A stretch of 64,000 nucleotides of DNA from Corallococcus sp. EGB. Its GTDB lineage: Bacteria > Myxococcota > Myxococcia > Myxococcales > Myxococcaceae. Below are positions 23,375 to 44,498 of this stretch, piece by piece (the stretch's first letter is position 1; each line of letters begins with the position of its first letter). The stretch spans positions 310,001 to 374,000 of the forward strand of contig NZ_CP079946.1 of the NCBI RefSeq assembly GCF_019968905.1. Reading direction: 5' to 3'. The position numbers and the translations under genes are program-made. The notes beneath the pieces were generated by a model. The model made no database searches and was not told where the DNA came from. It saw only the letters and a list, made by a program, of their open reading frames with translations.

Positions 23375-26300
23375 TTACGCCCGGCGGCGGCGCAGCTTCA
23401 GCGCCAGGCCGCACAGCATCAGCAGGCTGGTGGCGCCCAGCGGGCCCGGCACCGTGCTCTGGCAGTTGCAGCCGTCGGACTCGTCCGGCTTCTGCGGGTC
23501 GTCCGGGTCCACCACCGCGTCGTCGGTGACGAACACCGCGGTGGTGCGCGCTGGCACCGTGAAGCCGCCCGTGGCCGCGTCGTACGCGGACGTGCGCACC
23601 ACGGGGTCCGTGGATGCCTGCTGCGCCGGGTGCAGCTTGAGCTTCAGGGACTTGTACCCGTCCGCCTTGAACGTCTGGGCGTCATCCGTGCCGTTGAAGA
23701 GCACGATGGCGCGCTTGCCCTCGGCGTTGGTGCCGTGGTCCTGCATGGCCATCACGATGAGGCCCGGAATCTGGTCCGGGCCGGTGTTCTCGAAGCGCAC
23801 CAGCTGCTTCACCTCGTCACCGGTGCGCAGGCGGAACAGCCGCGAGCTCTTGCGGATGGTGAGCATCTCCTCGAAGTGGTCGCGCGCCCGGAGGATGTCC
23901 GCGCTCGCCGGCTTCAGCGCGGCGTCCGCCAGCAGCGGCCCGAAGAGCGGCCAGTTGCCCGAGTTGTCCTGGGCCGGGGGCAGGCCCACGCCCCAGTTGT
24001 TGGACTGGTAGGTCCAGTCCACCTGGTTGAACCAGTCCCCGGAGTTGAAGCTGTTGCGGTCCAGCGACTTGGAGCGCAGCAGCTCGTCGCCCGCGTGGAA
24101 GAACGGGATGCCCTGGCCCAGCGCCACCAGCGAGATGCCCAGGTTGTGCATGCGCACGCGCTCCGCCATGGGCAGGTCGCGCCGCGCCTTCAACTGCACC
24201 GCGTCGAAGAGCGTCTCGTTGTCGTGCGCGGAGACGTAGGTGATGACCTCCTGCGGGTCCAGCGTGTAGCCGGCCTTGGCCCCGTTGTAGTCCACCCCCT
24301 CCCCCGTGACGGTCGCGCCGGTGCGGTCCACCAGCGAGTAGTCCTTCAGGTTGCCGGTGAGGCCCACGCGGATCCAATCGCTGTAGCGCAGGAGCTTGTC
24401 CTTCTGCTCGGCCTCCGTGCCCTGGCTCGTGCCGTTGGGGTCGGACAACAGGCCCGTGATGAAGCCCTGCTCCTGCAGGCCGCTGAAGGGGCCACCGCCG
24501 CGAGCGGCGTCGCGCAGGCGGTCGTTGAACGTGCCGATGCCCGTGCCCGCCATGTTGGCCTGCGTGGCGTTGATGCCGCGCGCGTTGTTCTGCACCTCGC
24601 CGAAGTCCCATCCCTCGCCGTAGACGTAGATGGCCTTGCCGTCCACGCCGTCCTTCTCCACGGTGAGCGCGTCCAGCGTGGCGCGCAGCTTCACCATGTT
24701 GGACTTCAGGTGGTGGCCCATCAGGTCGAAGCGGAAGCCGTCCACCTTGTAGGCCTTGGCCCATGTCACCACGGAGTCGATGAGCAGCTTCTCCATCATC
24801 GCGTTCTCGGACGCGGTGTTCTGGCAGCAGGTGCTCGTCTCCACGTTCCCGTCGTCGCTGAGGCGGTGGTAGTAGCCGGGGACGATGCGGTCCAGCACGC
24901 TCTTGGCGTCCTGCCCGGAGGAGTGGGTGTGGTTGTAGACCACGTCCATCACCACGCGCAGGCCGTGCTGGTTGAGCGACTGCACCATCTCCCGGAACTC
25001 CACCGTGCGCGTCGTGCCCTGCGCGTTGGTGGAGTAGCTGCCCTCGGGCACCGTGTAGTGGTACGGGTCATAGCCCCAGTTGAAGCCGTCCAGGTCCGCC
25101 ACGGCGCCCACCGCCGCCTGCTGCTTGTCGGAGTCCGGCGGCAGCGACACCAGGTCGCCCTGCGGGTGCTGCTGCTGAGCGCGGTCCTCGTTGATGGTCG
25201 CGATGTCGAACACCGGCAGCAGGTGCACGTGCGTCAGGCCCGCCTTCGCCAGCCGGGTCAGGTGCTTCATGCCGTCCGAGTCCCGGGTGAAGGCCTTGAA
25301 CGTGCCGCGCTCGGCCTCCGGCACCGTCTTGTCGTTGATGCTGAAGTCGCGCACGTGCAGCTCGTAGAGGACGATGTCCTCCGGCGCCTCCAGCGCGGGC
25401 TTCGCCAGCGTGCTCCAGCCCTGCGGCGCGAGCGCCGGGTCCGCCAGGTCCACGAGCTGGCTCAGCTCGCTGTTGATGGAGAGGGCCACCGAGTACGGGT
25501 CGGTGACGCGGCTGGTGACGACCTTGCCCTCCTTGCGGGCGTAGACCTCCACCTCGTAGAGGAAGTAGCGGCTCTTCCATGACGCGTCGCCCGTGACGCT
25601 CCAGACGCCCTGGGCGCCGGCCGTCATGGGCACGCGCGTGGTGGTGGACGTGGGGCTGCCGTCCGCGAACAGGAGCAGGTTCACGCTCCGGGCGGTGGGG
25701 GCCCACAGGCGCAGCGTGGGGATGCCGTTCTCGAAGGTCGCGCCCAGCGGCCCGGTGTACGTGTCCAGGTCATCCAGCACGCCCGCGAACTGCACGCTGG
25801 TGGCGTCCAGCATCACGCCGTCCGCGTTCGTCGCGGACACGGCCAGCTGGCCCTTGAGCCACGTGGCCGCGTTGGCCACGTCCGCCTGCGCGAGCTTCAG
25901 CACCGGCCGGCCCACCAGGTTCGGGAAGCGCAGCGCCTGCGCGGCGGTGAGGCCCGCGGCGTCCGCCGTCAGCGTCACCGCCGTGCCGCCCTGCACCCCG
26001 GTGCTGCCCAGGGTCATGCCGCCCGTGGGCGCCGTGTGCAGCTTGAACACCGTGCCCGCGGGCACCGCGACCTCCGGGCTCCACACCAGCGTGTCGCGCG
26101 CGATCCAGTGCGCCCGCGCCAGCAGCAGGTTGCCCGCCGGAGCGTCCGCGGCGCGGATGGTCACCTTCTTGGACGCGCCGGAGTCGAAGGTGAAGATCAT
26201 CTCCTGGCCATCCCTCTCCACCGCGAAGGCCGCGTTGCTGCCGGGGTAGGCGGTGGTCCACTGTTCATCGAGCGCGACCTTGCACTCGTAGCTGCCCGCG

Positions 26301-26794
26301 GGCAGCGCCTTCGTGGTGAAGGTGTAGATGCCGTCGCCGTCCGGGTCCTGCATCAGGGTGCGCAGGCAGTCCGGCGCCCAGTCGCCCGGACAGCCCAGCT
26401 TGCTCTGGAGCGTGCCCGCCACCGTGGCGATGGTGCCGGAGCGGTTGCTCGTCACGTACAGCGTGTTCGCGTCGAAGTAGAACTTCACCGCGCCCGCCGC
26501 CGCCTGGTTCAGCACCACGTCCGCGCCGCCGGGGCCGCCGTGCGTCTGTGACAGCGAACCGTCCAGCGCGACCTTGAAGTGCCAGGTGCCCGCCGGCACG
26601 TTGAACGAGCCCTGCCACTTGTCATCCGCCGCGTCGTACGTCAGCGCCGTCTGCGCGCAGGTGGGGTCGTTGTTGCTGGCACAGCCGGCGCCCTGCTGCA
26701 GGTCGCCAATGACAGTCACCGACGCGGGCGCCGCCAGCGACGACAGCGGAACGAGCGCGGCCATCAGCCCGCTGATCGCGAGCGCTCGCGTCAT
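23375..26794 (-). CDS. pulA: Surface type I pullulanase (GH13) with MYXO-CTERM tail
   Basis: This debranching enzyme cuts alpha-1,6 links in pullulan and starch. It has 1139 residues: a signal peptide; two X25-type starch-binding modules (about 25-120 and 122-218, the second beginning GTLQSKLGCPGDW); a pullulanase N2-type region; a CBM48-like module; and the GH13 barrel. Visible are FNWGYDP (about 572, the pullulanase signature), nucleophile Asp in DGFRFDLMGHH (about 686), acid Glu in YGEGWDFG (about 727) and AHDNETLFD (about 859). The end, DGCNCQ, a hydrophobic helix and RRRR, is a classic MYXO-CTERM tail. It is divergent from the amylase gene, starting the alpha-glucan island. Confidence 0.95.
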   Translation of the reverse strand: MTRALAISGLMAALVPLSSLAAPASVTVIGDLQQGAGCASNNDPTCAQTALTYDAADDKWQGSFNVPAGTWHFKVALDGSLSQTHGGPGGADVVLNQAAAGAVKFYFDANTLYVTSNRSGTIATVAGTLQSKLGCPGDWAPDCLRTLMQDPDGDGIYTFTTKALPAGSYECKVALDEQWTTAYPGSNAAFAVERDGQEMIFTFDSGASKKVTIRAADAPAGNLLLARAHWIARDTLVWSPEVAVPAGTVFKLHTAPTGGMTLGSTGVQGGTAVTLTADAAGLTAAQALRFPNLVGRPVLKLAQADVANAATWLKGQLAVSATNADGVMLDATSVQFAGVLDDLDTYTGPLGATFENGIPTLRLWAPTARSVNLLLFADGSPTSTTTRVPMTAGAQGVWSVTGDASWKSRYFLYEVEVYARKEGKVVTSRVTDPYSVALSINSELSQLVDLADPALAPQGWSTLAKPALEAPEDIVLYELHVRDFSINDKTVPEAERGTFKAFTRDSDGMKHLTRLAKAGLTHVHLLPVFDIATINEDRAQQQHPQGDLVSLPPDSDKQQAAVGAVADLDGFNWGYDPYHYTVPEGSYSTNAQGTTRTVEFREMVQSLNQHGLRVVMDVVYNHTHSSGQDAKSVLDRIVPGYYHRLSDDGNVETSTCCQNTASENAMMEKLLIDSVVTWAKAYKVDGFRFDLMGHHLKSNMVKLRATLDALTVEKDGVDGKAIYVYGEGWDFGEVQNNARGINATQANMAGTGIGTFNDRLRDAARGGGPFSGLQEQGFITGLLSDPNGTSQGTEAEQKDKLLRYSDWIRVGLTGNLKDYSLVDRTGATVTGEGVDYNGAKAGYTLDPQEVITYVSAHDNETLFDAVQLKARRDLPMAERVRMHNLGISLVALGQGIPFFHAGDELLRSKSLDRNSFNSGDWFNQVDWTYQSNNWGVGLPPAQDNSGNWPLFGPLLADAALKPASADILRARDHFEEMLTIRKSSRLFRLRTGDEVKQLVRFENTGPDQIPGLIVMAMQDHGTNAEGKRAIVLFNGTDDAQTFKADGYKSLKLKLHPAQQASTDPVVRTSAYDAATGGFTVPARTTAVFVTDDAVVDPDDPQKPDESDGCNCQSTVPGPLGATSLLMLCGLALKLRRRRA

Positions 26795-27147
26795 GCGGGA
26801 AACTGCGAAAGGAACTCTCAGGGGAAACCTCCAGGGGGATGGAAATCTCCGGCACCGTACCAGCCGCTCCTGTCACGAGCGCCCGCGGGTCGTTTCCAAG
26901 CTTTGGGTGACCTCCTGGATGACCCGGGTGGGGACATGACCATCCGCCCCATGAAGTCGGATGCGAAGGGCCATCAAACCAGGACGCGGAGCGGCAGAAA
27001 CCAGGCGCTCCGTTGAGCCCGCCCGCGCCATGCGTCACACGGGTGTACAGAGGAAGACATTGGGGACATGGCGCGTTGCGCCATCAGCCGATTGTTCCGA
27101 CGACCCTTCACCGCTTCCAAGACTGTTGGATACAGTGCCGCGCCCAG
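26795..27147. promoter_or_regulatory. 353-base divergent region of pullulanase and amylase genes
   Basis: No gene is seen here. It must hold both promoters. A near-operator-like repeat ATGGCGC-GTT-GCGCCAT (27068-27084, perfect 7-bp arms) lies about 64 bases before the amylase start and could bind a regulator of the island. No regulator gene is present in the island itself. Confidence 0.4.
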
Positions 27148-28782
27148 ATGTCCTCCAGCCGCCCCCGCCGACAACCGAACGCTGTTGCCCACCGCGGTCG
27201 GTGGCGTCCGATGCTCCAGGGCCTTGTCGCCCTGTGTCTGGCGGGGTGCGCCACGGCCCCTCCGACCCCCACGAAGCCCGCGACGGAGTCCGCCGCGACA
27301 CAGCCCGCCACGCCGGCGGCACCGGCCCCCGCTCCCGAACCCGTGAAGGAGGCCGCGCCCGCGCAGCCTGCTCCGGAGAAGAAGGAGCCCGCGCGGCCCT
27401 GGGCGGACGAGGTGCTGTACTTCGTGGTGGTGGATCGCTTCGCGGACGGCGACCCCACCAACAACGAGAAGGGCGACCTGACGGCCGCGGGCACCTTCCA
27501 CGGCGGCGACCTGAAGGGGCTCACCGCGCACCTGGACGAGCTGTCTTCGCTGGGCGTGACGGCGCTGTGGGTGACGCCGCTGTTGAAGCAGATCCCGGGC
27601 TTCGTCACCGGCTCTGGCTTTCCGGACTGGGGCTACCACGGCTACTGGGCGGACGACTTCCACGCGTTGGATCCGCGCTTCGGCACGGAGGCGGACTTCA
27701 AGGCGCTGGTGGACGCGGCGCACGCGCGCGGCATCCGCGTGCTCCTGGACGTCGTCTACAACCACCCGGGCTACGACTCGCGCTACCTGAAGGACCACCC
27801 GGACTGGCTGCGCTCCGAGGGCCAGGGCACCTGCGGCTCGGATGATGTGACCACGTGCGTGGCGGGCCTGCCGGACTTCAAGACCGAGCGTCCGGAGGTG
27901 GCGAAGTACCTGATGGACGCGCAGATTGACTGGGCGAAGCGCTCCGGCGTGGACGGCTTCCGGCTGGACACCGTGAAGCACGTGGCCCACGACTTCTGGC
28001 AGGAGCACCGCCGCCGCACGCGCGCCGAAATCTCCCCGGACTTCTTCCTGCTGGGGGAGGTGTGGGGCGGCGATGTGCAGGTGCTGGCGCCGTACTTCAC
28101 CCCGGACGAGATGGACGCGGGGTTCGACTTCGCCTTCCAGGGCAACGTGCTGGGCTTCATCCAGGGCCGCGGCCGCGCGGTGGCGTTCGACCACTACCTC
28201 CAGTCGCGTGGGAAGGTGACGCCGGGCCACCACCTGGCGCACTTCCTGTCGTCGCACGACGTGGACGGGGCGCTGCACCAGCTGCAGGGCAACGTGCCTC
28301 TCTTCCGCCTGGCCGCCACGCTGCAGCTCACCACCAGCGGCATCCCGGTCATCTACTACGGCGAAGAGGTGGGCCGCGCCGGCGGTGACTGGCCCGCGAA
28401 CCGCGGCGACATGCCGTGGGGCAGGCAGGCGGTGAGGCCCGGCGCGGGAAAGAAACGCGACGAGGCGCTGCGCGAGTATTACAAGCGCCTCATCGCCATC
28501 CGCCGCGCGCACCCGGCCCTGTCGCGGGGCACGCACGCCGCGCTCAACACGGAGGGCGACGTCTACGTCTTCCAGCGGCGCGACGAAGCATCCGGCGACA
28601 CGGTGGTGGTGGCGGTGAACCGCGGCAAGACGAAGGGCACGGCGTCGGTGCCGTGGCCGGAGGGCTGGACGGGCGTCGCGGAGGTGGAGGACCTGCTGAA
28701 CGGAGGGCGGACGAAGGCTGGCGCCACGCTGGACCTGGCGCTCCCGCCGCTGTCCGCGCGCATCCTCGGGCGCGTGCCGTGA
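27148..28782 (+). CDS. Lipoprotein alpha-amylase (GH13)
   Basis: The 544-residue enzyme cuts alpha-1,4-glucans. It has a lipobox (LCLAGC), a Pro/Ala/Glu linker (about 35-85) and the GH13 barrel (about 88-470): VVYNH, nucleophile in DGFRLDTVKHV, acid in LLGEVWGG and FLSSHDVDG. The lipid anchor places it on a membrane, probably the cell surface. ATG 27148 gives a long basic region before the hydrophobic core; ATG 27211 would give a very short signal (MLQGLVALCLAGC) and is also possible. The transport genes follow 79 bases downstream. Confidence 0.9.
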   Translation: MSSSRPRRQPNAVAHRGRWRPMLQGLVALCLAGCATAPPTPTKPATESAATQPATPAAPAPAPEPVKEAAPAQPAPEKKEPARPWADEVLYFVVVDRFADGDPTNNEKGDLTAAGTFHGGDLKGLTAHLDELSSLGVTALWVTPLLKQIPGFVTGSGFPDWGYHGYWADDFHALDPRFGTEADFKALVDAAHARGIRVLLDVVYNHPGYDSRYLKDHPDWLRSEGQGTCGSDDVTTCVAGLPDFKTERPEVAKYLMDAQIDWAKRSGVDGFRLDTVKHVAHDFWQEHRRRTRAEISPDFFLLGEVWGGDVQVLAPYFTPDEMDAGFDFAFQGNVLGFIQGRGRAVAFDHYLQSRGKVTPGHHLAHFLSSHDVDGALHQLQGNVPLFRLAATLQLTTSGIPVIYYGEEVGRAGGDWPANRGDMPWGRQAVRPGAGKKRDEALREYYKRLIAIRRAHPALSRGTHAALNTEGDVYVFQRRDEASGDTVVVAVNRGKTKGTASVPWPEGWTGVAEVEDLLNGGRTKAGATLDLALPPLSARILGRVP

Positions 28783-28861
28783 GGCACCCGCGGCATGCGC
28801 AGAACCAGACCCGGACGTGCTGTTGTCACCGGCGCGAGCGGGGCTCTTGCTGGAGGGCCTG

Positions 28862-29956
<1,095 letters not shown>

Positions 29957-29976: not shown

Positions 29977-31200
29977 ATGACGCACCTGCGAACGTTGCTC
30001 GCGGCCCTCTGTCTGTGCGCAGTCGGCCTGTTGCCCGTCCCGTCCTTCGCCGCCACGGAGCTGGTGCTCTGGCACGCCTACCGCGCGGAGGAGAAGGCCG
30101 CGCTGGAGAAGGTGGTCGCCGAGTACAACAAGGCCAATGAAGGCAAGGTGAAGGTCACCACGCTGGCGGTGCCCTACGACGCCTACGCGGACAAGATCAG
30201 CGCCACCGTGCCGCGCGGCAAGGGCCCGGACCTCTTCATCTTCGCGCAGGACCGCCTGGGCGGCTGGATTGAAGCGGGCAACACGGTGGAGCCCATTGAC
30301 TTCTTCCTGGATGACGCGACGAAGAAGCGCTTCATCCCCACGACGATGGAGGCGATGACCTACCGCGGGACGGCTTACGGCCTGCCGCTGAACTACAAGG
30401 TCATCACGCTCATCTACAACAAGAAGCTGGTCCCCACGCCGCCCAAGACATCCGGCGAGATGGTGACGATGGCCAAGAAGCTCACTGACGCGAAGGCGGG
30501 CCGCTTCGGCCTCGCGTACGCGTACAACGACTTCTACTACCACGCGGCGGTGATGAACGGCTTCGGCGGCGGCGTGTTCGACGCGAAGAGCGCCCCCACG
30601 CTGAACTCGCCCGCCAACGTGAAGTCGGTGGAGCAGGTCCTCAAGTGGAAGAACAAGGACGGCATCCTCCCCGCGGAGCCCTCCAGCGCGCTGATCACCT
30701 CGCTCTTCAACGAGGGCAAGGCCGCGATGGTGTTCTCCGGCCCGTGGTTCCTGGGCGAGGTCTCCAAGGACGTGGACTACGGCCTGGCCCGGCTGCCCAC
30801 GCTGGATGAGAACAAGGGCACGCCGATGAAGCCCTGGATGACGGTGGAGGGCGTGTACGTGGCCGCCCCGTCGAAGAACAAGGAAGCGGCGTACGACTTC
30901 GCGAAGTTCCTCACCGACGCGGGCCCCGGCAGGACGCTGGCCCTGGAGGGCCGCCAGAGCCCGGCCAACCAGGAGGTCTACAAGGACGCGAAGGTGGCCG
31001 CGGATCCGCTGCTCAAGGCGATGAAGGACCAGGTGGACGTGGCGGTGCCCATGCCCAACCTGCCGGAGATGTCCATGGTCTGGACCCCGGCCACCAGCGC
31101 GATGAACACCGTGTTCAAGAACACCGCCACCCCCAAGGCGGCGCTGGACGCGGCCCAGAAGAGCGTGGCGAAGGACGTCGCCGGTCTGCGCAAGAAGTAA
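29977..31200 (+). CDS. malE: Maltose/maltodextrin-binding protein
   Basis: The periplasmic solute-binding protein (family 1) has 407 residues and a signal peptide (LLAALCLCAVGLLPVPSFAA). Typical motifs are ELVLWHAYRAEEK, the early strand pattern of MBP; KGPDLFIFAQDRLGGW; and GTAYGLPLNYKVITLIYNKKL. The length matches E. coli MalE. The start has GGAGGAT about 9 bases upstream. The substrate assignment rests on these motifs and on the amylase and pullulanase neighbours. Confidence 0.93.
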   Translation: MTHLRTLLAALCLCAVGLLPVPSFAATELVLWHAYRAEEKAALEKVVAEYNKANEGKVKVTTLAVPYDAYADKISATVPRGKGPDLFIFAQDRLGGWIEAGNTVEPIDFFLDDATKKRFIPTTMEAMTYRGTAYGLPLNYKVITLIYNKKLVPTPPKTSGEMVTMAKKLTDAKAGRFGLAYAYNDFYYHAAVMNGFGGGVFDAKSAPTLNSPANVKSVEQVLKWKNKDGILPAEPSSALITSLFNEGKAAMVFSGPWFLGEVSKDVDYGLARLPTLDENKGTPMKPWMTVEGVYVAAPSKNKEAAYDFAKFLTDAGPGRTLALEGRQSPANQEVYKDAKVAADPLLKAMKDQVDVAVPMPNLPEMSMVWTPATSAMNTVFKNTATPKAALDAAQKSVAKDVAGLRKK

Positions 31201-31213
31201 GCGAGGAGCTGAA

Positions 31214-33262
31214 GTGAGCCAGAACGCCTCCCAGCAGCCCCCTTCCGCGGCCGGCGCCCCCACGCCGGCCCGCGTCTCTCCGAACGATTCAGCGCCGGGC
31301 CCTGCGACTTCGGGACCCGCTGGCCGTGCGGGCGGCTACCGGGGGCGCGTGCTGGTGGGGCTCGCGCTGGCGCTGGGCGTGTCCCTGGTCCTGGCGCACG
31401 GCCTGCTCGCGCGCGCCAACCAGGAGCGCGCGGCCGAGCGCGAGCAGCGCACGTCCACCGTGTCCCTGCTGGGGCTGGCGGACCTGGTGCAGCGCGCGGG
31501 CGGCTCCAGCGACGGCGTGAAGGCCGTGGTGGCGGGCTGGCCGGGCGTGCCGGGGAGCTCCGTGCGCGTCATCGCCTTCAGCGGCATCAAGCTGGAGGCG
31601 TCCACCTTCCCGGATGACACCGGGGACAAGGCGGCGCCGCGCCGGCTGTCGCGCGAGGAGAAGCCGCTGTACGACCGGGGCCAGCGCCTGCGCGCCGCGG
31701 TGGAGACGAACCGCGAGGAGGGCGGCGCGCGCAAGCCGGAGGTGGAGTCCGAGCTGCTCGACAACGGCGCGAGCCGCCTGCTCTCCGCGCCCGTGGAGGT
31801 GGACGGGCAGGTGGTGGGCTCCGTGGAGGCCCTCACTCCGGTGGTGGTGAAGGGAGAGGCGCCGTCGTGGACGCCGGTGCTGCTGGCCTTCCTGCTGCCC
31901 CTGGCGGCGTGCGCGGCGGCGGTGTTCGCGCTGTCGCGCCAGGGCGTGCGCGTGGCGGTGGCGGCGGCGCTGTTCCTGGCGGGCCTGGGGGGCTACACCG
32001 TCTATTCGCTGCGCGCGCTGGACGCGGAGCTGCGCGCGACGGAGGACGCGGTCAGCGCGGAGCTGCGCACGCGCGGCGAGAAGGCCCAGGCGCTCATCGC
32101 CGCCAACAACCTCAACGCGGAGCCCGCGCTGAAGCCGGGCGCATGGGACGCGGACTCGATGCGCCGCCCGCTGGGCCGGCTGACGGAGTCCGGCGCGCCG
32201 GATGAGGGCAAGCTCGCGGCGCAGGGCGCCCAGGTGCGCGGCAACGCGACGAAGGCGCTGGGCACGCTGGGCGTGCTGGGGCTCGCGGTGCTGCTGTTCA
32301 TCGGCCTGGGCGCGCTGCACCGCGCGGCGGCCACGGCGGTGGAGTACCGGCAGGCCTACGCCTACATCCTGCCCGCCATGGTGGGCATGGTGGTGCTGGT
32401 GTTCTTCCCCTTCGCCTACGGCATCACGCTGTCGTTCACGGACGCCAACCTCTACAACAGCAGCCAGCCGCTGTCGGAGCTGTGGGTGGGCTTCCGCAAC
32501 TACGTGGACATCCTGGGCGACTTCAGCTTCGCGAAGACGGCGGCGGACGGCTCGCTGGTCTTCAACTACCTGAACTTCTACTACACGCTGCTCTTCACCA
32601 TCGTGTGGACGGTCACGAACGTGACCATCGGCGTGACGGTGGGCCTGCTGCTCGCGCTGGCCCTCAACGTGCCGAACCTGAAGATGCGGCCGGTGTACCG
32701 CGTGCTGCTCATCCTGCCGTGGGCCATGCCCAACTACATCACCGCGCTCATCTGGAAGGGCATGTTCCACCAGCAGTTCGGCGTGGTGAACCACGTCATC
32801 CGGATGTTCGGCGGCGAGGGGCTCGCCTGGTTCGACTCCCCCCTCACGTCGTTCTTCACGGCGCTGGCCACCAACGGCTGGCTGTCCTTCCCGTTCATGA
32901 TGGTGGTGTCGCTGGGCGCGCTGCAGTCCATCCCCGCGGAGCTGTATGAAGCGGCGCGCGTGGACGGCGCCAGCCGGTGGCAGCAGTTCACCGCCATCAC
33001 GCTGCCCGCGCTGAAGCCCGCGCTGGTGCCGGCGGTCATCCTGTCGGTGGTGTGGACCTTCAACATGTTCAACATCATCTTCCTGGTGACGGGCGGCGAC
33101 CCGGGTGGCTCCACCGAGATCCTGGTCACCCAGGCCTACAAGTTCGCCTTCGAGCGCTACCGCCACGGCTACGCGGCGGCGTACTCCACCGTCATCTTCG
33201 GCATCCTGCTGCTCTACAGCATGGTGCAGAACCGCATGAGCCGCGCCACGGAGGCCGCGTAG
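31214..33262 (+). CDS. malF: MalF-type permease with large N-terminal sensor-like extension
   Basis: The C-terminal 300 residues are a normal MalF permease: membrane helices from about residue 380 (AYAYILPAMVGMVVLVFFPF) and the EAA loop YEAARVDGASRWQQFTAITLP (about 577) that contacts MalK. The first 370 residues are not typical. They have a helix at about 44-63, a 150-residue extracytoplasmic domain, two helices at about 218-238 and 246-264, an 80-residue loop rich in coiled-coil-like sequence, and a helix at about 350-371. This resembles the extracytoplasmic part of a receptor. The start is GTG with GAGGAG 8 bases upstream. At 682 residues it is longer than E. coli MalF. Confidence 0.88.
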   Translation: MSQNASQQPPSAAGAPTPARVSPNDSAPGPATSGPAGRAGGYRGRVLVGLALALGVSLVLAHGLLARANQERAAEREQRTSTVSLLGLADLVQRAGGSSDGVKAVVAGWPGVPGSSVRVIAFSGIKLEASTFPDDTGDKAAPRRLSREEKPLYDRGQRLRAAVETNREEGGARKPEVESELLDNGASRLLSAPVEVDGQVVGSVEALTPVVVKGEAPSWTPVLLAFLLPLAACAAAVFALSRQGVRVAVAAALFLAGLGGYTVYSLRALDAELRATEDAVSAELRTRGEKAQALIAANNLNAEPALKPGAWDADSMRRPLGRLTESGAPDEGKLAAQGAQVRGNATKALGTLGVLGLAVLLFIGLGALHRAAATAVEYRQAYAYILPAMVGMVVLVFFPFAYGITLSFTDANLYNSSQPLSELWVGFRNYVDILGDFSFAKTAADGSLVFNYLNFYYTLLFTIVWTVTNVTIGVTVGLLLALALNVPNLKMRPVYRVLLILPWAMPNYITALIWKGMFHQQFGVVNHVIRMFGGEGLAWFDSPLTSFFTALATNGWLSFPFMMVVSLGALQSIPAELYEAARVDGASRWQQFTAITLPALKPALVPAVILSVVWTFNMFNIIFLVTGGDPGGSTEILVTQAYKFAFERYRHGYAAAYSTVIFGILLLYSMVQNRMSRATEAA

Positions 33263-33265
33263 ACC

Positions 33266-34153
33266 ATGGCGCTCTTCTCTGAACGTCGCGAGGGCATCTC
33301 CCACGTGCCGCTGCACGCGGTGCTGGTGGCCTTCACCCTCTTCACCCTCTACCCCATCCTCTGGGTGGTGAGCCTGGCCTTCTCCGGCAAGCAGAGCCTG
33401 GCCATCGCCACGCTGCCGGAGAACCCCACCTTCTGGGACCGGCTGCGCGCGGTGACGCCGTGGCCGGAGACCTTCTCCGCCTCCAACTTCGTGTCGGTGA
33501 TGTCCGACCAGCCGTTCGCGAAGTGGATGCTCAACAGCGCCATCGTGGCCATTGGCACCACGGTGCTGGGCGTCTTCATGGCGTGCACGGCGGCGTACGC
33601 GTTCAGCCGCTTCAAGTTCCCCGGCCAGCGCGCGGGCATGATGGCGTTCCTCGTGTCCCAGATGTTCCCGGGCACGCTGATGCTGATTCCGCTCTACATC
33701 ATCCTGGTGCAGTGGCTGGGCCTGGGCAGCAGCCGGCTGGGCCTCATCATCGTGTACGCCACCACGTCCATCCCGTTCAGCGTGTGGATGCTCAAGGGCT
33801 ACTTCGACACGATTCCCAAGGACCTGGAGGAGGCGGCGCTGATGGACGGCGCGTCCGTGGGCCGCATCTTCTGGAGCATCATCCTGCCCCTGGCCAAGCC
33901 CGCGGTGGCGGTGACGGCGCTGTTCAGCTTCATGACGGCGTGGAACGAGTTCATCCTCGCGGCGACGTTCATGGACCAGGAAGCCATGTACACGGCGCCG
34001 GTGGGCCTGCGCTTCTTCGTGGGCGGCTTCAGCCAGCAGTGGGGCTACTTCGCGGCCGGCTCCATCATCGTGTCCGTGCCCGTCGTGTTCCTCTTCCTCT
34101 TTTTGCAGAAGTACCTCGTCTCCGGTCTCACCGCCGGCGGCGTGAAGGGTTAG
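33266..34153 (+). CDS. malG: Maltodextrin ABC permease MalG
   Basis: The second permease subunit has 295 residues and six predicted membrane helices. It has the EAA motif LEEAALMDGASVGRIFWSIILPLAKP and the MalG-type end LFLFLQKYLVSGLTAGGVKG, which in E. coli inserts into the substrate path. It starts 3 bases after malF. The residues around SQMFPGTLMLIPLYIIL match the family. Confidence 0.94.
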   Translation: MALFSERREGISHVPLHAVLVAFTLFTLYPILWVVSLAFSGKQSLAIATLPENPTFWDRLRAVTPWPETFSASNFVSVMSDQPFAKWMLNSAIVAIGTTVLGVFMACTAAYAFSRFKFPGQRAGMMAFLVSQMFPGTLMLIPLYIILVQWLGLGSSRLGLIIVYATTSIPFSVWMLKGYFDTIPKDLEEAALMDGASVGRIFWSIILPLAKPAVAVTALFSFMTAWNEFILAATFMDQEAMYTAPVGLRFFVGGFSQQWGYFAAGSIIVSVPVVFLFLFLQKYLVSGLTAGGVKG

Positions 34154-34196: not shown

Positions 34197-35156
34197 ATGA
34201 TCACCCCCCGCATTGCAGTCCTCACGCTGGCCGCCTCCCTGACCGCGGCACCGGCCCTGGCCGAGAAGGTGTCCTTCAAGGACCCCACCGGCGACGACAA
34301 GGGCCCGGGCAAGTACACCTACCCGACGGACCCCGTGTACAAGCCGGGCTCGTTCGACCTGACCGGCTTCAAGCTGGACCAGGGCGGCAACAAGACGGAC
34401 ATCGAAATCACGGTGAAGGCGTCGCTGGAGAACCCCTGGAAGATGGCGGACGGGTTCTCCGTGCAGGAGGTCTTCATCTTCATCGACACGGACCACAAGG
34501 TGGGCAGCGGCTTCACCGACAGCCCCCCGGGCCTGAACGTCGCCTTCGCGCCGGAAGACGCGTGGGACAAGGTCATCATCATCTCGCCGCAGGGCTCGTC
34601 GCGCGTGCGCGCGGAGGCCAACAACAAGGCCGGCGCGATGAAGAACGCCGTCGTGGTGCCCACCAAGGTGCGCGCCTCCGGCAACAAGATCACCGCCACC
34701 GTCATGAATGCGGACCTGGGCGCCGGTGACCCCTCCACGTGGGGCTACCAGGTCGTCATGCAGTCCAACGAGGGCTTCCCGGCGGAGAACGACCTGCTCA
34801 CCCGCCGCGTGAACGAGTACGAGGGTCAGCACCGCTTCGGCGGCGGCACCGACACCAACTGCGATCCGCACGTGATGGACGTGCTCGCGGGCCAGGGCAA
34901 GGGTGACAGCTCTGAGGTCAAGGCTCAGTACGACATGCTCTCGTACGAGTGCGCGGCGGACGGCACCGCGTCGAAGAAGGCCACGCTGAAGATGGTCTCC
35001 GGCGAGAAGCGCCCGGCGGCGCAGGGCGGCGCGGCGGCGACCCCGGCCCCCGAGGCGGCTCCGGCCGCTCCGGCCCCGGCTCCGGCGCCCACGCCGGCCG
35101 CTCCGGCTGGAACGACGGTCGCTCCGGCGCCGACGACGGCCACGCCGACGAAGTAG
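34197..35156 (+). CDS. Exported glucodextranase C-terminal-like (DOMON-like) protein
   Basis: The 319-residue protein has a signal peptide (AVLTLAASLTAAPALA). The mature part starts with FKDPTGDDKGPGKYTYPTDPVYKPGSFDLTGF, the hallmark of the glucodextranase C-terminal domain, a carbohydrate- or surface-binding beta sandwich. Further family features are VFIFIDTDHKVGSG, WDKVIIISPQG and TWGYQVVMQSNEGF. The last 50 residues are Ala/Pro repeats, perhaps a wall or membrane linker. It follows malG by 43 bases with AAGGAG upstream. It likely binds glucans at the surface or in the periplasm for the transporter. Confidence 0.85.
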   Translation: MITPRIAVLTLAASLTAAPALAEKVSFKDPTGDDKGPGKYTYPTDPVYKPGSFDLTGFKLDQGGNKTDIEITVKASLENPWKMADGFSVQEVFIFIDTDHKVGSGFTDSPPGLNVAFAPEDAWDKVIIISPQGSSRVRAEANNKAGAMKNAVVVPTKVRASGNKITATVMNADLGAGDPSTWGYQVVMQSNEGFPAENDLLTRRVNEYEGQHRFGGGTDTNCDPHVMDVLAGQGKGDSSEVKAQYDMLSYECAADGTASKKATLKMVSGEKRPAAQGGAAATPAPEAAPAAPAPAPAPTPAAPAGTTVAPAPTTATPTK

Positions 35157-38681: not shown

Positions 38682-38777
38682 TCGCCCGCCCCGTGACGGT
38701 CGCCTCGCGCGCTGTGCGCGGGAGGTCCTGGTTGCGGTGAGTCCGCGCGGCCGAGGATGGGTGCCTTGGAGGCATCC

Positions 38778-40136
38778 ATGTCCTCAGGCCGGAGCTGGGC
38801 GGTGGTGATGCTGCTGTTGTTGCTGGGCACGGGGTGTTCAGCGACGCGTGGCGTCCGGCTGAAGACGGGGCGCGGGGCTCCGGTCGTCCATGTGCCTCGG
38901 ACGGATGTCGCGCCTGTGGAGCTGGAGGAGGGTGCGTTCACCGAGGCGGTGCGGACGCTGGCGGAGGATGCGCCGGTGGCTTCGCGCCCTCGTGATGAGG
39001 CGTACCGGTTGTTCGCGGGCTCGTTCTCCATGAAGGCTTATGCCCGGGTCCGTGGGCGTTTGGGACTGGTCTCCGTGGCGGGGCCTTCTCGGGCTTCGTT
39101 GTGGATGGAGGACGGCGAACGGGAGTTGGCGAGCGCTTATGGGCGGTGGTGCCAGCGCAAGCAGACTCCAGGGGACTGTCTTCAGTTGCTGGAGGGCCGT
39201 TCCGCGCTGGATGAGGACGGACGGCGTTCGCTGGCGTTCGCCATCGCGCTGGATTCGGTGTGGGAGGAGACCGCGGATGCGCTGGTGGGGATGACGGACC
39301 GGCGCGCGGTGCTCACCACCATCGTCGCGACGAGCACCGTGTACCTGGCGCTGTGGTTGCTGCCCGAGCCCGTGTCGAAGGGCATCGCGGCGACGATGAC
39401 GGTGGTGCTCGTCGCCTACCTGGGCATCGACACGGTGTGGAACCTCATCCAGGGATGGATCGAGTTGTCCGAGCAGGCCCGGGTGGCCCGGACGTTCGAC
39501 GCGCTTCGTGACGCGGGGGAGGAGTACGGCGAGGTGATGGGGAAGAACGCGGCGCGCGCGTTCGTGATGCTGGCGCTGGCGGCGGTGGGGAGCACGGCGG
39601 AGACGTTCGCGGCGAGGGTCGCGACGCTCCCGGGTTCAGGGCAGGCCTCGCTGGTGGCCGCGGAGGTGGGGGGCTTCCGGCTGGGCGCGGCGGCGCAGGT
39701 GGAGTCCGCGGCGGTGACCTCTGAAGGTGTCACCCTGGTGCTGGCGCCGAACGCGGTGGCCATGTCCGCGCGGGATGACAAGGGACCCGTCGCGAGTGGG
39801 GCGGATGCGGAAGGGCACGAGCACCACATCGCATCCAACAAGTGGTGGAGCGCCACGAATCGCGGAGGCCCGTGGTCACCTCGGTTCCAGAAGATCTTCG
39901 ACAAGGCGGGGATGTCGTTGGATGACCCGGCGAACAAGGTTCGCGTTCCGGGACACAAGGGGCCCCATCCGGAGGCGTACCATCGGAGGGTATTCACGAC
40001 TTTGAGGGATGCGACGGCAAAATGCAGAACCATGCAAGACTGTCGCGCATCGTTGACGAAAGCGCTGCGGAGCCTTGCAAGCGAGATTCAAGAGAAGGGT
40101 ACCGACTTGAATCGTTGGGTCACCGGCTTGGAGTGA
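38778..40136 (+). CDS. SitA-like lipoprotein toxin with C-terminal AHH nuclease domain
   Basis: The 452-residue protein has a lipoprotein signal (VVMLLLLLGTGC). A conserved-looking N-terminal domain (about 30-175) is followed by two hydrophobic helices (about 178-225) and a Gly/Ala-rich hinge. The C-terminus is an AHH-type HNH/endonuclease domain (about 343-415): EGHEHHIASNK, then FQKIFDKAGMSLDDPANKV, then HPEAYHRRVF. Myxobacterial SitA toxins are lipoproteins with variable C-terminal toxic domains passed between kin by outer-membrane exchange; this gene has that build, next to an immunity gene. The ATG at 38778 has GGAGG 7 bases upstream. I see no SitB gene. Base composition drops near the 3' end. 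Confidence 0.8.
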   Translation: MSSGRSWAVVMLLLLLGTGCSATRGVRLKTGRGAPVVHVPRTDVAPVELEEGAFTEAVRTLAEDAPVASRPRDEAYRLFAGSFSMKAYARVRGRLGLVSVAGPSRASLWMEDGERELASAYGRWCQRKQTPGDCLQLLEGRSALDEDGRRSLAFAIALDSVWEETADALVGMTDRRAVLTTIVATSTVYLALWLLPEPVSKGIAATMTVVLVAYLGIDTVWNLIQGWIELSEQARVARTFDALRDAGEEYGEVMGKNAARAFVMLALAAVGSTAETFAARVATLPGSGQASLVAAEVGGFRLGAAAQVESAAVTSEGVTLVLAPNAVAMSARDDKGPVASGADAEGHEHHIASNKWWSATNRGGPWSPRFQKIFDKAGMSLDDPANKVRVPGHKGPHPEAYHRRVFTTLRDATAKCRTMQDCRASLTKALRSLASEIQEKGTDLNRWVTGLE

Positions 40137-40152
40137 CATAGGAGCGCCGCCC

Positions 40153-41403
40153 GTGCCGACGAAGTACTTCGACCTTTATGAGCATGTCGCTGAAGGATTC
40201 TGGTGCTTGGGGCATCCGCTCGATGCTCAAAGGCGAGAGCTCGATGACCCCTGGCAATTCACCGAAGGTGTGCCTGTCCAGTTCAAGGGGCGGATCAAGC
40301 TCCCACTGGACTTGGAGGGGGAGTCTCGTGACTACGCGCACGCGGCGTTCGGAACGCCGGTCGTCAATGCGAAGCTGGCTGCCATCTTCCAGGAGCTGGC
40401 TTCAAATGAAGTGGAGTTGATTCCTGTCGAGGTCGACTCCCACGCTGGGCCGTACTTCATCCTCAATGCCCTCCGCACCTTCCCATGCATCGATACCGAG
40501 GCTTCCTCGGAGGTGGCCTATTGGAGAGAGGAGGACGGCATACCCGAGAAGGTGGGGAAGCTCTTCTCCATCTCCGGAATGCGAATTGACCCGTCGAAGG
40601 TGGGCGATGCGAAGGTGTTCCGTCCTTCTGAGTGGAAGGGCTCTCTCATCGTCTCCGAGGACATCAAGGACGCGATGGAGCGCGCGGGCATTACAGGCGC
40701 GAAGTTCGAAGCAGTCACGGGGCCTCCGACCTTCGACCCTGTTCGGCGTGCGGAGACGAAGAAGCGCGCCGAGTTGTGGCACCAGGCGCGCCATGCTCGT
40801 GCAGCCGTGTGGCAGGGGCTTGGCACCCTGTCTGACGATCTCTACATCCCTCCTGTCGTGGGTGGTCCTTGGCCCGGCGAGCGACAGAACTGGATAGCCA
40901 TCGGCCGTCCTGATGGCCACATGCTCATCGTGACCGACGGTCTGTCCGACCCGTTCAACGACATCCTGGACCGTCCCACGGCGGGCTTCGGACTGGAGCT
41001 CGCCATCGAGACTCCGGAGCCACTGGGGGAGGTGTGGAAGAGCTGGCCGGTGCACCTGCTCGAACGCGTGGCCTACGAGGTCGCTGAGTTCGAGAAGCTC
41101 CGTGTCTCCCTGTCCAACGGCACGCTGTCCATGGAGGTGGACGGCGTGGGCATGCCGGAAACCCTCATCACCCCCGAGGGCCGCGTGGCCGTGCTCATCG
41201 GCATGGAGACGGATGCACTGCCCTCGCGCTTCACGCTTCCCGGTGGCGAGGTCCGGCTCCTCACCGTGAAGGCGCTGATGCCCGCGGAGCTGAAATGGCT
41301 GCTCCGTCAGGGCAGGAGCGCGGCAGCGGAGCTCATCCGCCGCTTCCACGCCGCGGGAGAGAGCTACCTCTCCCGCTCGTGGCGTCAGCCCGTCGTGAGT
41401 TAG
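40153..41403 (+). CDS. Dual-domain immunity protein (Imm11-like + SUFU-like)
   Basis: The 416-residue cytoplasmic protein starts 16 bases after the toxin, at a GTG with AGGAGC upstream. Residues 1-195 resemble immunity protein Imm11 (DUF1629): FILNALRTFPCIDTEAS, FRPSEWKGSLIVSEDIKDAMERAGITGAKFEAV. Residues 215-390 resemble the SUFU immunity domain: NWIAIGRPDGHMLIVTDGLSDP, FGLELAIETPEP, WPVHLLERVAYEVAEFEKL and LLTVKALMPAELKWLL. It should neutralise the AHH toxin. Two immunity-type domains in one chain suggest a fusion that protects against two toxin types. Its stop codon overlaps the convergent amylase stop. Confidence 0.8.
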   Translation: MPTKYFDLYEHVAEGFWCLGHPLDAQRRELDDPWQFTEGVPVQFKGRIKLPLDLEGESRDYAHAAFGTPVVNAKLAAIFQELASNEVELIPVEVDSHAGPYFILNALRTFPCIDTEASSEVAYWREEDGIPEKVGKLFSISGMRIDPSKVGDAKVFRPSEWKGSLIVSEDIKDAMERAGITGAKFEAVTGPPTFDPVRRAETKKRAELWHQARHARAAVWQGLGTLSDDLYIPPVVGGPWPGERQNWIAIGRPDGHMLIVTDGLSDPFNDILDRPTAGFGLELAIETPEPLGEVWKSWPVHLLERVAYEVAEFEKLRVSLSNGTLSMEVDGVGMPETLITPEGRVAVLIGMETDALPSRFTLPGGEVRLLTVKALMPAELKWLLRQGRSAAAELIRRFHAAGESYLSRSWRQPVVS

Positions 41404-43064
41404 CGCAGCCGCCAGATGCCCGTGGAGCGCGCCGGGAGGCTCGTCTTCCACGCTCCCGTGCCTCCCGAGAGCGGCGCCACGCCGGAGTCCAGGAACAGCG
41501 GCTCCGCCGTCGTGGCCTCCACGTCGAACGGGCCCACCGACTCCTGCGCGGTGGAGAAGTTGTGGATCACCAGCACCTGCTCGTCGCCCAGCGTCCGCAC
41601 GAAGGCGAGCGTGCGCGACATGCCCGTCGTCGCCGTGAACAGCCTCAGGCCCCCGTTGCGCAGCGCCTCTGAACCCTGGCGCGCGTGGATGAGGTTCCGG
41701 TAGCGCGACAGCAGCGACCCCGGGTTGCTCCGCTGCGACTCCACGTTCGCCGTCTCCCTTCCGCCGGAGAACGCGTACCAGGGCGAGCCCGTCGTGAAGC
41801 CTCCACCCGCCGCGGCGCTCCACGGCATGGGCGTGCGCTTGGACTCGTCGTTGTTGGCGTTGCCGTTCCCCAGGCCCACCTCCTCGCCGTAGTAGAGGAA
41901 CGGCGCGCCCGGCAGCGTCAGCAGCACCGCCGCCGCCAGCCCCAGCTTCGCTCCGTCGTTGGAGAACTGCGTCGCCAGCCGCACCATGTCGTGGTTGGTG
42001 AGGAACGGCGCGTCCGCCACCCCGGCCGGATAGTTGTTCTTCATCTCCAACAGCTTCGACGCCACGCCGCCGCTGTTGCCCGCGTTGATGCCTTCAATCA
42101 CCCGCGCGGACATGGGGAAGTTGAAGTTGAGCGGAAGCTCGTCCCCACCCGGCACCGTCGCCGTGGAGCCGTAGTACTTCGCCACCGACGGCGTCTCGCT
42201 CCAGGCCTCGCCCACCAGCACCGCGTCCGGCTTCACCGAACGCACGTGCGCGGCGAACTCCTTCCAGAACGCATGCGTCTCCGGCGTGTCCGCCTGCCCC
42301 GCGCCGCCACCCGTCTCGATGAGGTAGCGCGCGGCATCCAGCCGGAAGCCGTCCACGCCGCGCTGGAGCCACAGCGTCGCCAGCCGCTTCACCTCGTCGC
42401 GCACCGCGAGCGTCTGGAGGTTCAAGTCCGGCATGCCGCCCCAGAAGACGCCGTAGTACCAGCCGGTGTCCTGCTGGTGCCACGTGTTGGTCTGCGAGTA
42501 GATGTCCCACGGCTGCGCCCACGCGGGGTTGTTCGCGCGCCACTGATACCAATCCCGCTTCGCCGACTGCGGCGAGGACTTCGAGTCCACGAACCACGGA
42601 TGTTCCGTGCTGGTGTGGTTGATGACGAAGTCCAGGATGACGCGCATGCCACGGCGGTGCGCCTCGTCACACAGCCGTTGCAGGTCCTCCAGTGAACCGT
42701 AGGCCGTCTGGATGCGCTCGTAATCCGATACGTCGTAGCCGTGGTAGCTGGGCGACGCGAAGACCGGCATCAGCCACAGCGCGTCCACGCCCAGGTCATC
42801 CGTCGTCGCCGGGTTGCCGTCGTTCAGGTAGTCCAGCCGTGAGATGAGGCCCTGCAGGTCTCCCACGCCGTCGCCGTTGGAGTCCTGGAAGCTGCGGACG
42901 AACACCTCGTAGAACACCGCGCCCCGGTACCACGCGTCCCCCGCGGGCGCGGCGAGCGTGATGTTTCCAGGCGCGGACGGTGTCGGAGCCGGAGAGGGTG
43001 AAGAGCCGGCGCAGGCCGACAGCAGGGCCGCGCTGCAGAGGGAGAGTCCGCGGAGGGGGCGCAT
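41400..43064 (-). CDS. Lipoprotein alpha-amylase (GH13), second copy
   Basis: The 554-residue lipoprotein ([12 protein letters not shown]) has a short Pro/Ser linker and a complete GH13 domain: the N-terminal strand [31 protein letters not shown], nucleophile in [11 protein letters not shown], acid in VGEAWSE and [24 protein letters not shown] is a calcium-site motif of many amylases and glucosidases. It differs in family branch from the amylase at 27148. The ATG at 43064 has GAGGAAGAGG upstream. It faces the toxin-immunity pair. Confidence 0.93.
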
Positions 43065-43154
43065 GGCCTCTTCCTCTAACAGCGAACGATCCACGCGGGC
43101 CAGCGAGCGGCCCGGATGATGCGCGGCCACCCGGGCAGTAGGCTGGTGACCACC

Positions 43155-44498
43155 ATGTCTCATCCCGCGCGCCGCCTTCATTCCCTGCATATCCGGCAGG
43201 GGCACCCGGACTTCCTCGACCTCCCGTGGGAGCTGCCGCTGGAAGCGTGGCCGGAGCGTTCGCCGCGCGTGGTGGAGGTGCCGCGCGGCCTGTCCCGGCA
43301 CGTGGTGGTGTTCGTCAGCTACGGCGCCACCATCTACGCCTTCAAGGAGACCCCCGCGCGCGTGGCGCAGCGCGAGTACGACCTCTTGCGCGGCCTGGAG
43401 GAGCGCCGGCTGCCGTCGGTGGTGCCCGTGGGGCTGGCGGTGCAGACAGAAGAGGGGCTGGAGGCCGCGCCCGGGGACAGGCCCGGGCTGTTGATCACCC
43501 AATACCTGGCCTCGTCGCTGCCGTACCGCGCGCTGTTCATGCACCAGGGCCTGGAGCGCTACCGCTCAAGGCTGTTGGACGCGATGGCGGGCCTGCTCGT
43601 GCGGCTGCACCTGGGCGGCTTCTTCTGGGGAGACTGCTCGCTGTCCAACGTGCTCTTCCGACGCGACGCGGGCGAACTGCAGGCGTACGCGGTGGACGCG
43701 GAGACGTCCGAGCTGCACGAGCAGCTCTCCGCGGGCCAGCGGGAGATGGACCTTCAAATCATGGAGGAGAACATCGCCGGGGGCCTGGCGGATCTGTCCG
43801 CTCGCGTGGAGCTGGCGGAGGAATTGCCCCAGGAGCTGGAGGCGTGGCAGGAGACGGCCGCGAGCATCCGCCAGCGCTACGAACGGCTGTGGGCGGAGAT
43901 CAACCGCGAGCTCATCCTCCAGCCGCATGAGAGCTACCGCATCCACGAGCGGATCCGCACGCTCAACGACCTGGGCTTCTCCGTGGGCGAGGTGGAGCTC
44001 GTGGCGAGCGGGCAGGGCAGCCAGTTGCGCATGCGCACCATCGTCACGGACCGCGAGTACCACCGGCACCAGCTGCACTCGCTCACCGGCATCGTCGCGG
44101 AGGAGCGCCAGGCGAGCCTGCTGCTCAACGAGCTGCGGGAGATGAAGGCCACGCTCACGCGCAAGCTGGACCGCAGCGTGCCCCTGAGCGTGGCCGCGTT
44201 CCGCTGGCTGGACGAGCGCTACCACCCCACGCTGTCACGCCTGCAGAAGGACCTGGGCCGCGTGGCCGACACCGCGGAGCTCTACTGCCAGGTGCTGGAG
44301 CACAAGTGGTTCCTGTCCGAGCGCGCGAAGCGCGACGTGGGCCTGGACGCGGCCCTCCAGGACTACGTCGCGCTCACCCGCAAGCAGCCTGGCATCGTGC
44401 CGCTGTTGGAGGACGCGGCGCGGGCCGCGGGTTCCAGTTCGCAGGAGGTGGAGGAGGAGCCTCCTCGCACGCCTCCCGCGACGCGCTCGGCCGGGTAG
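43155..44498 (+). CDS. DUF4032 protein with kinase-like N-terminal region
   Basis: The 447-residue protein has a lipopolysaccharide-kinase-like core: [16 protein letters not shown], then [15 protein letters not shown], which resembles the catalytic loop HGDxxxxNIL, and YAVDAETSE, like the metal-binding DFD. The second half is the DUF4032 region ending [29 protein letters not shown]. The family is widespread in actinobacteria and myxobacteria with unknown function. It converges on the metallophosphoesterase gene with a 2-base gap. Confidence 0.8.

Follow-up and report, generated by a model that had tools for sequence, protein, structure and literature searches.

A MalF permease with an N-terminal, extracytoplasmic Cache-type domain in the maltodextrin operon of Corallococcus sp. 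EGB

In MalF of Escherichia coli, a P2 domain of about 180 residues lies between TM3 and TM4 (PMC2246101), and MalF-P2 is reported, in the title of Grote 2009 as cited in PMC3328499, to relay substrate availability to MalK. A further large periplasmic addition to a maltose permease, an insert of approximately 500 residues, is found in the MalG proteins of Thermotogales and was reported to have no similarity to known proteins (PMC2246101). Cache domains are described as the input part of signalling proteins: the survey that defined this superfamily names a known signal-transduction output domain for every family except one, and neither transporters nor permeases are mentioned in its main text (PMC4822843). 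Here, we analyzed a malF gene in a 64,000-nucleotide window of the Corallococcus sp. EGB genome (NZ_CP079946.1, positions 310,001 to 374,000), to which the coordinates below refer. The original prediction, made from the sequence alone, had described the product as a permease preceded by a receptor-like module and knew of no described MalF of such build. In agreement with this, our literature search, which covered few subscription journals, brought up no ABC permease with a Cache domain, no N-terminal MalF extension like this one and no MalE-MalF fusion.

The malF gene and its surroundings

The stretch 31214-33262 is a single intact malF in an amylase-malK-malE-malF-malG operon (cf. Table 1). 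Its 682 codons are uninterrupted; the frame starts with GTG, has a GAGGAG ribosome site just 5' of it, and is preceded by the malE stop codon 13 bp ahead. For malE itself, we placed the start at an ATG with GGAGGA 5' of it, though the mechanically called open reading frame begins at 29953. The nearest curated model for the whole 682-residue chain was MalF (PRK10999, 1.1e-55), with a score of 189 bits that falls under the cut-off of 392 bits set for enteric MalF, and BPD_transp_1 (PF00528), the EAA-loop permease domain, was found at residues 473-675 (1.1e-21). Residues 1-375, which correspond to the approximately 370 extra residues noted originally, are indeed surplus in comparison with a six-helix CUT1 permease, and all Pfam and NCBIfam models remained below their cut-offs in this part of the chain.

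Each of the 15 congeneric genomes contained a full-length match free of internal stops (85-95% identity), and several other genera did so at 59-74%, the N-terminal half included, which is far beyond chance. Because the frame is conserved without stops in congeners and other genera alike, the N-terminal half is not a separate gene, and a misreading or frameshift is ruled out by the same single open frame in every relative.

Several neighboring genes are worth describing. Between 34197 and 38655, two genes for Glucodextran_C-domain proteins lie on either side of a gene for a 778-residue protein without Pfam match, labeled only as a putative outer-membrane protein; the first of the two Glucodextran_C genes is kept beside malG across phyla. 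A pullulanase gene (23378-26794) and a second alpha-amylase gene (41403-43544), both on the minus strand and thus opposite to the transporter operon, flank the latter, and together they make up an alpha-glucan utilisation region. Near the mal locus, at 38757-41403, a gene for an AHH nuclease precedes one of the Imm11/SUFU immunity type, and the two are likely a toxin-immunity pair.

Table 1. Position of malF, its segments and its neighboring genes in the analyzed window
Feature	Position	Strand	Residues	Basis or remark
alpha-Amylase (GH13), leading gene of the operon	27013..28782	+		Pfam Alpha-amylase 1.2e-55
malK, ATPase subunit	28817..29956	+		ABC_tran, OB_MalK, TOBE_2
malE, separate periplasmic maltodextrin-binding protein	29977..31200	+		SBP_bac_1 2.3e-37; MalE model 2.7e-51
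malF with N-terminal module	31214..33262	+	682 aa	
TM1	31346..31408	+	45-65	Hydropathy (of a congener); AlphaFold2 helix 42-94
Extracytoplasmic single Cache domain (predicted)	31409..31864	+	66-217	H-H-E-E-H-E-E-E
K150-x-x-x-D154 motif (KPLYD)	31661..31675	+	150-154	K 97%, D 68/68
TM2	31871..31930	+	220-239	Hydropathy and AlphaFold2
TM3 and long periplasmic helix	31940..32104	+	243-297	AlphaFold2 helix
Enlarged P1 loop, WDxD...RPxG tip	32018..32248	+	269-345	
TM4	32249..32311	+	346-366	AlphaFold2 helix 331-364; equals E. coli MalF TM2
Six-helix CUT1 permease core	32339..33259	+	376-682	BPD_transp_1; MalF model 1.1e-55
malG	33266..34153	+		BPD_transp_1; MalG model 1.2e-52
Glucodextran_C-domain protein	34197..35156	+		Domain match; synteny beside module-type malFG in several phyla

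Topology and predicted fold of the N-terminal half

The four hydrophobic helices, the loop of about 150 residues and the loop of about 80 residues that had been read from the sequence were all recovered by hydropathy and AlphaFold2, which modelled residues 41-370 as folded (pLDDT 88-98). Unfolded filler is thus ruled out by a high-confidence fold. The helix that contains TM1 extends onward into the periplasm, and the cytoplasmic turn between TM2 and TM3 counts only about three residues. The view that all four helices are extra held for the first pair only: when 68 relatives were combined in a profile, TM4 and the helix that opens the core aligned with residues 49-104 of 9nxc_H, which are TM2 and TM3 of E. 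coli MalF, and TM3, judged by its position relative to TM4 only, occupies the place of E. coli TM1. Since TM4 aligns with TM2 and TM3 sits at TM1, the four helices comprise one new pair and the TM1-TM2 hairpin of the eight-helix MalF. The real additions to the eight-helix plan are therefore the unit TM1-domain-TM2 (about 200 residues) and the enlarged P1 loop. At the position of P2, a segment of only 33-52 residues was found in all of the 102 module-type and fused proteins. To see whether P2 and module exclude each other, we also drew 274 genomes of the class to which Algicola belongs, but these gave only two MalF-like matches, too few to judge from. In the two Anaeromyxobacter loci with a module-type MalF, the 80-residue P1 hairpin has shrunk to about a dozen residues and the Cache domain is kept. 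At loci L138 and L035-L038, the P1 region is beta-rich, spans approximately 125-150 residues and is possibly a further small domain.

A Foldseek search with the full-length model gave only permeases among the matches listed, and the domain was then modelled separately. From an alignment with 60 relatives, AlphaFold2 modelled residues 66-217 on their own with a mean pLDDT of 93.9 and a pTM of 0.88, as a long N-terminal helix followed by a PAS-like beta sheet with a helix. In the PDB, Foldseek matches at E ≤ 0.001 were confined to WalK/YycG, namely to its extracellular part (lowest E 5.8e-5, with a probability of 1.00 and TM 0.57-0.60), and the next ones were sensor domains of Tlp3, CtaA, CitA and Pct-type chemoreceptors, with a few PAS/GAF proteins interspersed; a viral structure library contained no match at this threshold. 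When the domain sequences of 38 members were compared with the Pfam Cache models, none scored above the cut-off, the best single-sequence hits being sCache_3_2 (0.0029, 2 of 38) and Cache_WalK (0.0076, 1 of 38). For a profile-profile comparison by hhalign, two chemoreceptors, a histidine kinase and an MFS protein of this genome supplied the Cache regions; it gave scores of 33-36, that is twice any shuffle, since the maximum in 60 column shuffles was 15.7 and the reversed profile scored 9-12. The comparison with Cache folds suggested at the outset was thus positive both by structure and by profile, and the modelled domain belongs to the extracytoplasmic PAS-like (Cache) class. We also considered a relic of a fused MalE, which found no support: the domain has a Cache fold, its length is 150 rather than 370 residues, and MalE is encoded separately.

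Over 68 sequences, D154 is invariant (68/68), K150 and P193 are conserved in 97% and G202 in 91%; the best-conserved positions of the module include the polar residues S130, T131, D135, R143, R147, E149, K150 and D154. Simple Nei-Gojobori counts, which give rough values in so GC-rich a genome, yielded a dN/dS of 0.30-0.56 for the domain vs 0.07-0.25 for the permease, so the domain is under constraint, though a weaker one than the core.

Distribution of the module and its relation to MalE-MalF fusions

The survey of myxobacteria proposed originally found the module conserved there, and the build proved to be spread far beyond this group. A scan of named genomes revealed it in at least (i) Acidobacteriota (Thermoanaerobaculia, Holophagales, Sulfidibacter), (ii) gammaproteobacteria (Algicola), betaproteobacteria (Rubrivivax, Ideonella, Gallionella) and alphaproteobacteria (Aquidulcibacter), and (iii) Cloacimonadota, Aminicenantes and Schekmanbacteria, with the helix spacing seen here. 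A myxobacterial invention is ruled out by this occurrence across several phyla. The order amylase-malK-malE-malF-malG-Glucodextran_C is repeated across the module-bearing phyla, and the alpha-amylase gene is equally placed in loci of Acidobacteriota as well as beta- and gammaproteobacteria. Among Myxococcota, the TM1-domain-TM2 profile matched 55 of 195 genomes (17 of 90 genera), in one copy per genome and nearly always within a frame of MalF length. In Corallococcus sp. EGB, the profile search found no second copy, the sole one being that of the mal locus.

The same genome also encodes another sensor-transporter chain, which is unrelated to the first. In this MFS transporter (676-residue frame, genome positions 4139211-4141238), the N-terminal part resembles a receptor and is composed of a TM helix, a Cache-like domain, another TM helix and a HAMP-like linker; the chain occurs in 6 of the genus's 16 genomes.

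Elsewhere, namely in Microbulbifer and in numerous further genomes of myxobacteria, one gene takes the place of malE and malF, and its product consists of a signal sequence, a binding protein of about 370 residues, one membrane helix and the permease core. None of the 18 fused chains (from 16 myxobacterial genomes and Microbulbifer) has the module. Conversely, malE is separate and adjoins malF in 83 of the 84 module-type loci, a set in which a few genomes are counted twice, and the 84th locus is cut by a contig end; no MalE match was found within the module-type chains, and the malE of our locus is the separate upstream gene. A tree restricted to the permease cores (quick LG+G4 search with SH-aLRT support, unrooted) requires at least three changes of the fusion state, which are enforced by strongly supported branches too, and places the Microbulbifer fusions deep inside the proteobacterial module clade. 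From these two features of the tree, we take the module as probably ancestral, with the binding protein taking its place on at least three occasions. The loss in the fusions is partly trivial, because the C-terminus of MalE can be joined only at a periplasmic point, and a junction in the P1 loop removes whatever lies ahead of it. Still, as judged from these chains, the module could be dispensed with whenever MalE became tethered, and its loss in 18 of 18 fusions points to a role in handling MalE as much as to gating.

Possible roles of the module and comparison with known systems

We tentatively favor, with chances close to even, a role of the Cache unit in cis at the MalE interface, where it may be, by analogy, a docking or allosteric platform that replaces P2. 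The single Cache domain would sit outside, held between the two added membrane helices, and would build, together with the P1 hairpin, a periplasmic platform on the outer face of MalFGK2. Such a platform would position MalE and couple its docking state to the permease, thereby doing the job of the E. coli P2 domain that is missing here. Once MalE became covalently fused to MalF, the platform would be needless and could be lost. Our analysis bears out the fold, the topology, the conservation, the synteny and the either/or relation between module and fusion, and docking with its coupling to transport is what we infer. Since plain six-helix CUT1 permeases operate with free binding proteins and manage without a docking domain, docking is not a necessary job, and the invariant Asp, the near-invariant Lys and the conserved Ser/Thr/Arg residues in the predicted Cache fold might just as well indicate a pocket for a ligand.

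In the main rival explanation, the Cache domain would bind a periplasmic small molecule (a sugar, a carboxylate, an ion or a cue of cell density), and this would act in cis, by way of TM2-TM3, to open or brake MalFGK2. The original prediction had likewise suggested that an outside signal could gate import, and several points speak for it: the nearest folds are sensor domains of receptors, the polar residues named above are well conserved, and no extracellular sensor that binds ligands is more common than the Cache domain (PMC4822843). However, a ligand gate should not disappear at every MalE fusion, the domain contains no known binding motif, and it drifts faster than the permease. Moreover, the closest fold is the extracellular Cache domain of WalK, for which we know of no established small-molecule ligand. 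We consider this explanation rather unlikely, and we are similarly doubtful that these proteins form an ancient, multi-phylum importer class whose permease has its own Cache sensor for a periplasmic ligand, by which import would be gated directly, without a signalling cascade.

It is improbable that the module merely aids the insertion or folding of MalF or its pairing with MalG, with no role in sensing or docking. Its faster evolution relative to the core and the dispensability of the P1 hairpin in Anaeromyxobacter would fit such an appendage, but it has been kept over phylum-scale time with an invariant D154 and with K150 and P193 at 97%, and was lost only along with MalE fusion.

The idea of a sensor welded to a transporter stood insofar as a Cache-type domain does lie between two membrane helices, though the chain lacks a cytoplasmic output domain: Pfam and NCBIfam models recognized BPD_transp_1 only, and no HAMP, kinase, cyclase or chemotaxis domain. 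This and the short TM2-TM3 turn make classical receptor signalling, and receptor-like output to other proteins, unlikely, so the module must act in cis, via the membrane helices or the outer face. Hence, we give very little credence to a MalF that doubles as a receptor and reports the transport state to a partner such as a sensor kinase or regulator, even though the TM-Cache-TM build resembles receptors and signalling transporters have a precedent in PstSCAB, as indicated in PMC5775613. A HAMP domain, an S-helix and an enzymatic domain are all missing, and the conserved neighbors are amylases, transporter subunits and the Glucodextran_C protein, with no conserved kinase or regulator among them (checked by homology to the window genes only). 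Finally, we found no point in favor of an artefact; that the N-terminal half is a gene of its own, the result of a frameshift or mere unfolded filler has virtually no chance in view of the stop-free frame of all relatives and the confidently modelled fold.

The predicted platform, our preferred reading, may be set against several described systems. In sensor kinases such as WalK/YycG and CitA and in related chemoreceptors, a single Cache domain of equal fold is likewise flanked by two membrane helices, and its long first helix continues TM1; these receptors carry HAMP plus a kinase or MCP part, whereas the domain of the MalF chain is joined to a transporter core and stays below Pfam cut-offs. 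Calcium-channel alpha2delta subunits are likewise a case of Cache acting on a transport protein and not on a kinase, as indicated in PMC9901441, yet they are eukaryotic, separate subunits with a double Cache, in contrast to the single, in-chain Cache described here. An ABC importer permease that owns a Cache domain across phyla would extend the role of this superfamily to transport control or scaffolding. A MalE-MalF fusion has reportedly been described for Bdellovibrio bacteriovorus by Licht and Schneider in 2019. The fusion importers share the locus, the permease and a periplasmic domain ahead of the last pre-core helix with the present protein, but this domain is the binding protein itself (about 370 residues) instead of a Cache domain; the repeated swap of one for the other is a natural experiment on binding-protein recruitment, an open question for type I importers. 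MalG1 and MalG2 of Thermotogales are also maltose permeases with a large periplasmic addition on the N-terminal side (PMC2246101), which we compare by description, and which lies in MalG, not in MalF. Lastly, E. coli MalF (PDB 2r6g, 3puy, 9nxc) has the CUT1 core, the operon partners and the pre-core TM1-TM2 hairpin in common with the Corallococcus protein; the enteric, eight-helix MalF has P2 and no Cache module, whereas the MalF described here has the Cache module and a long P1 hairpin in the absence of P2.
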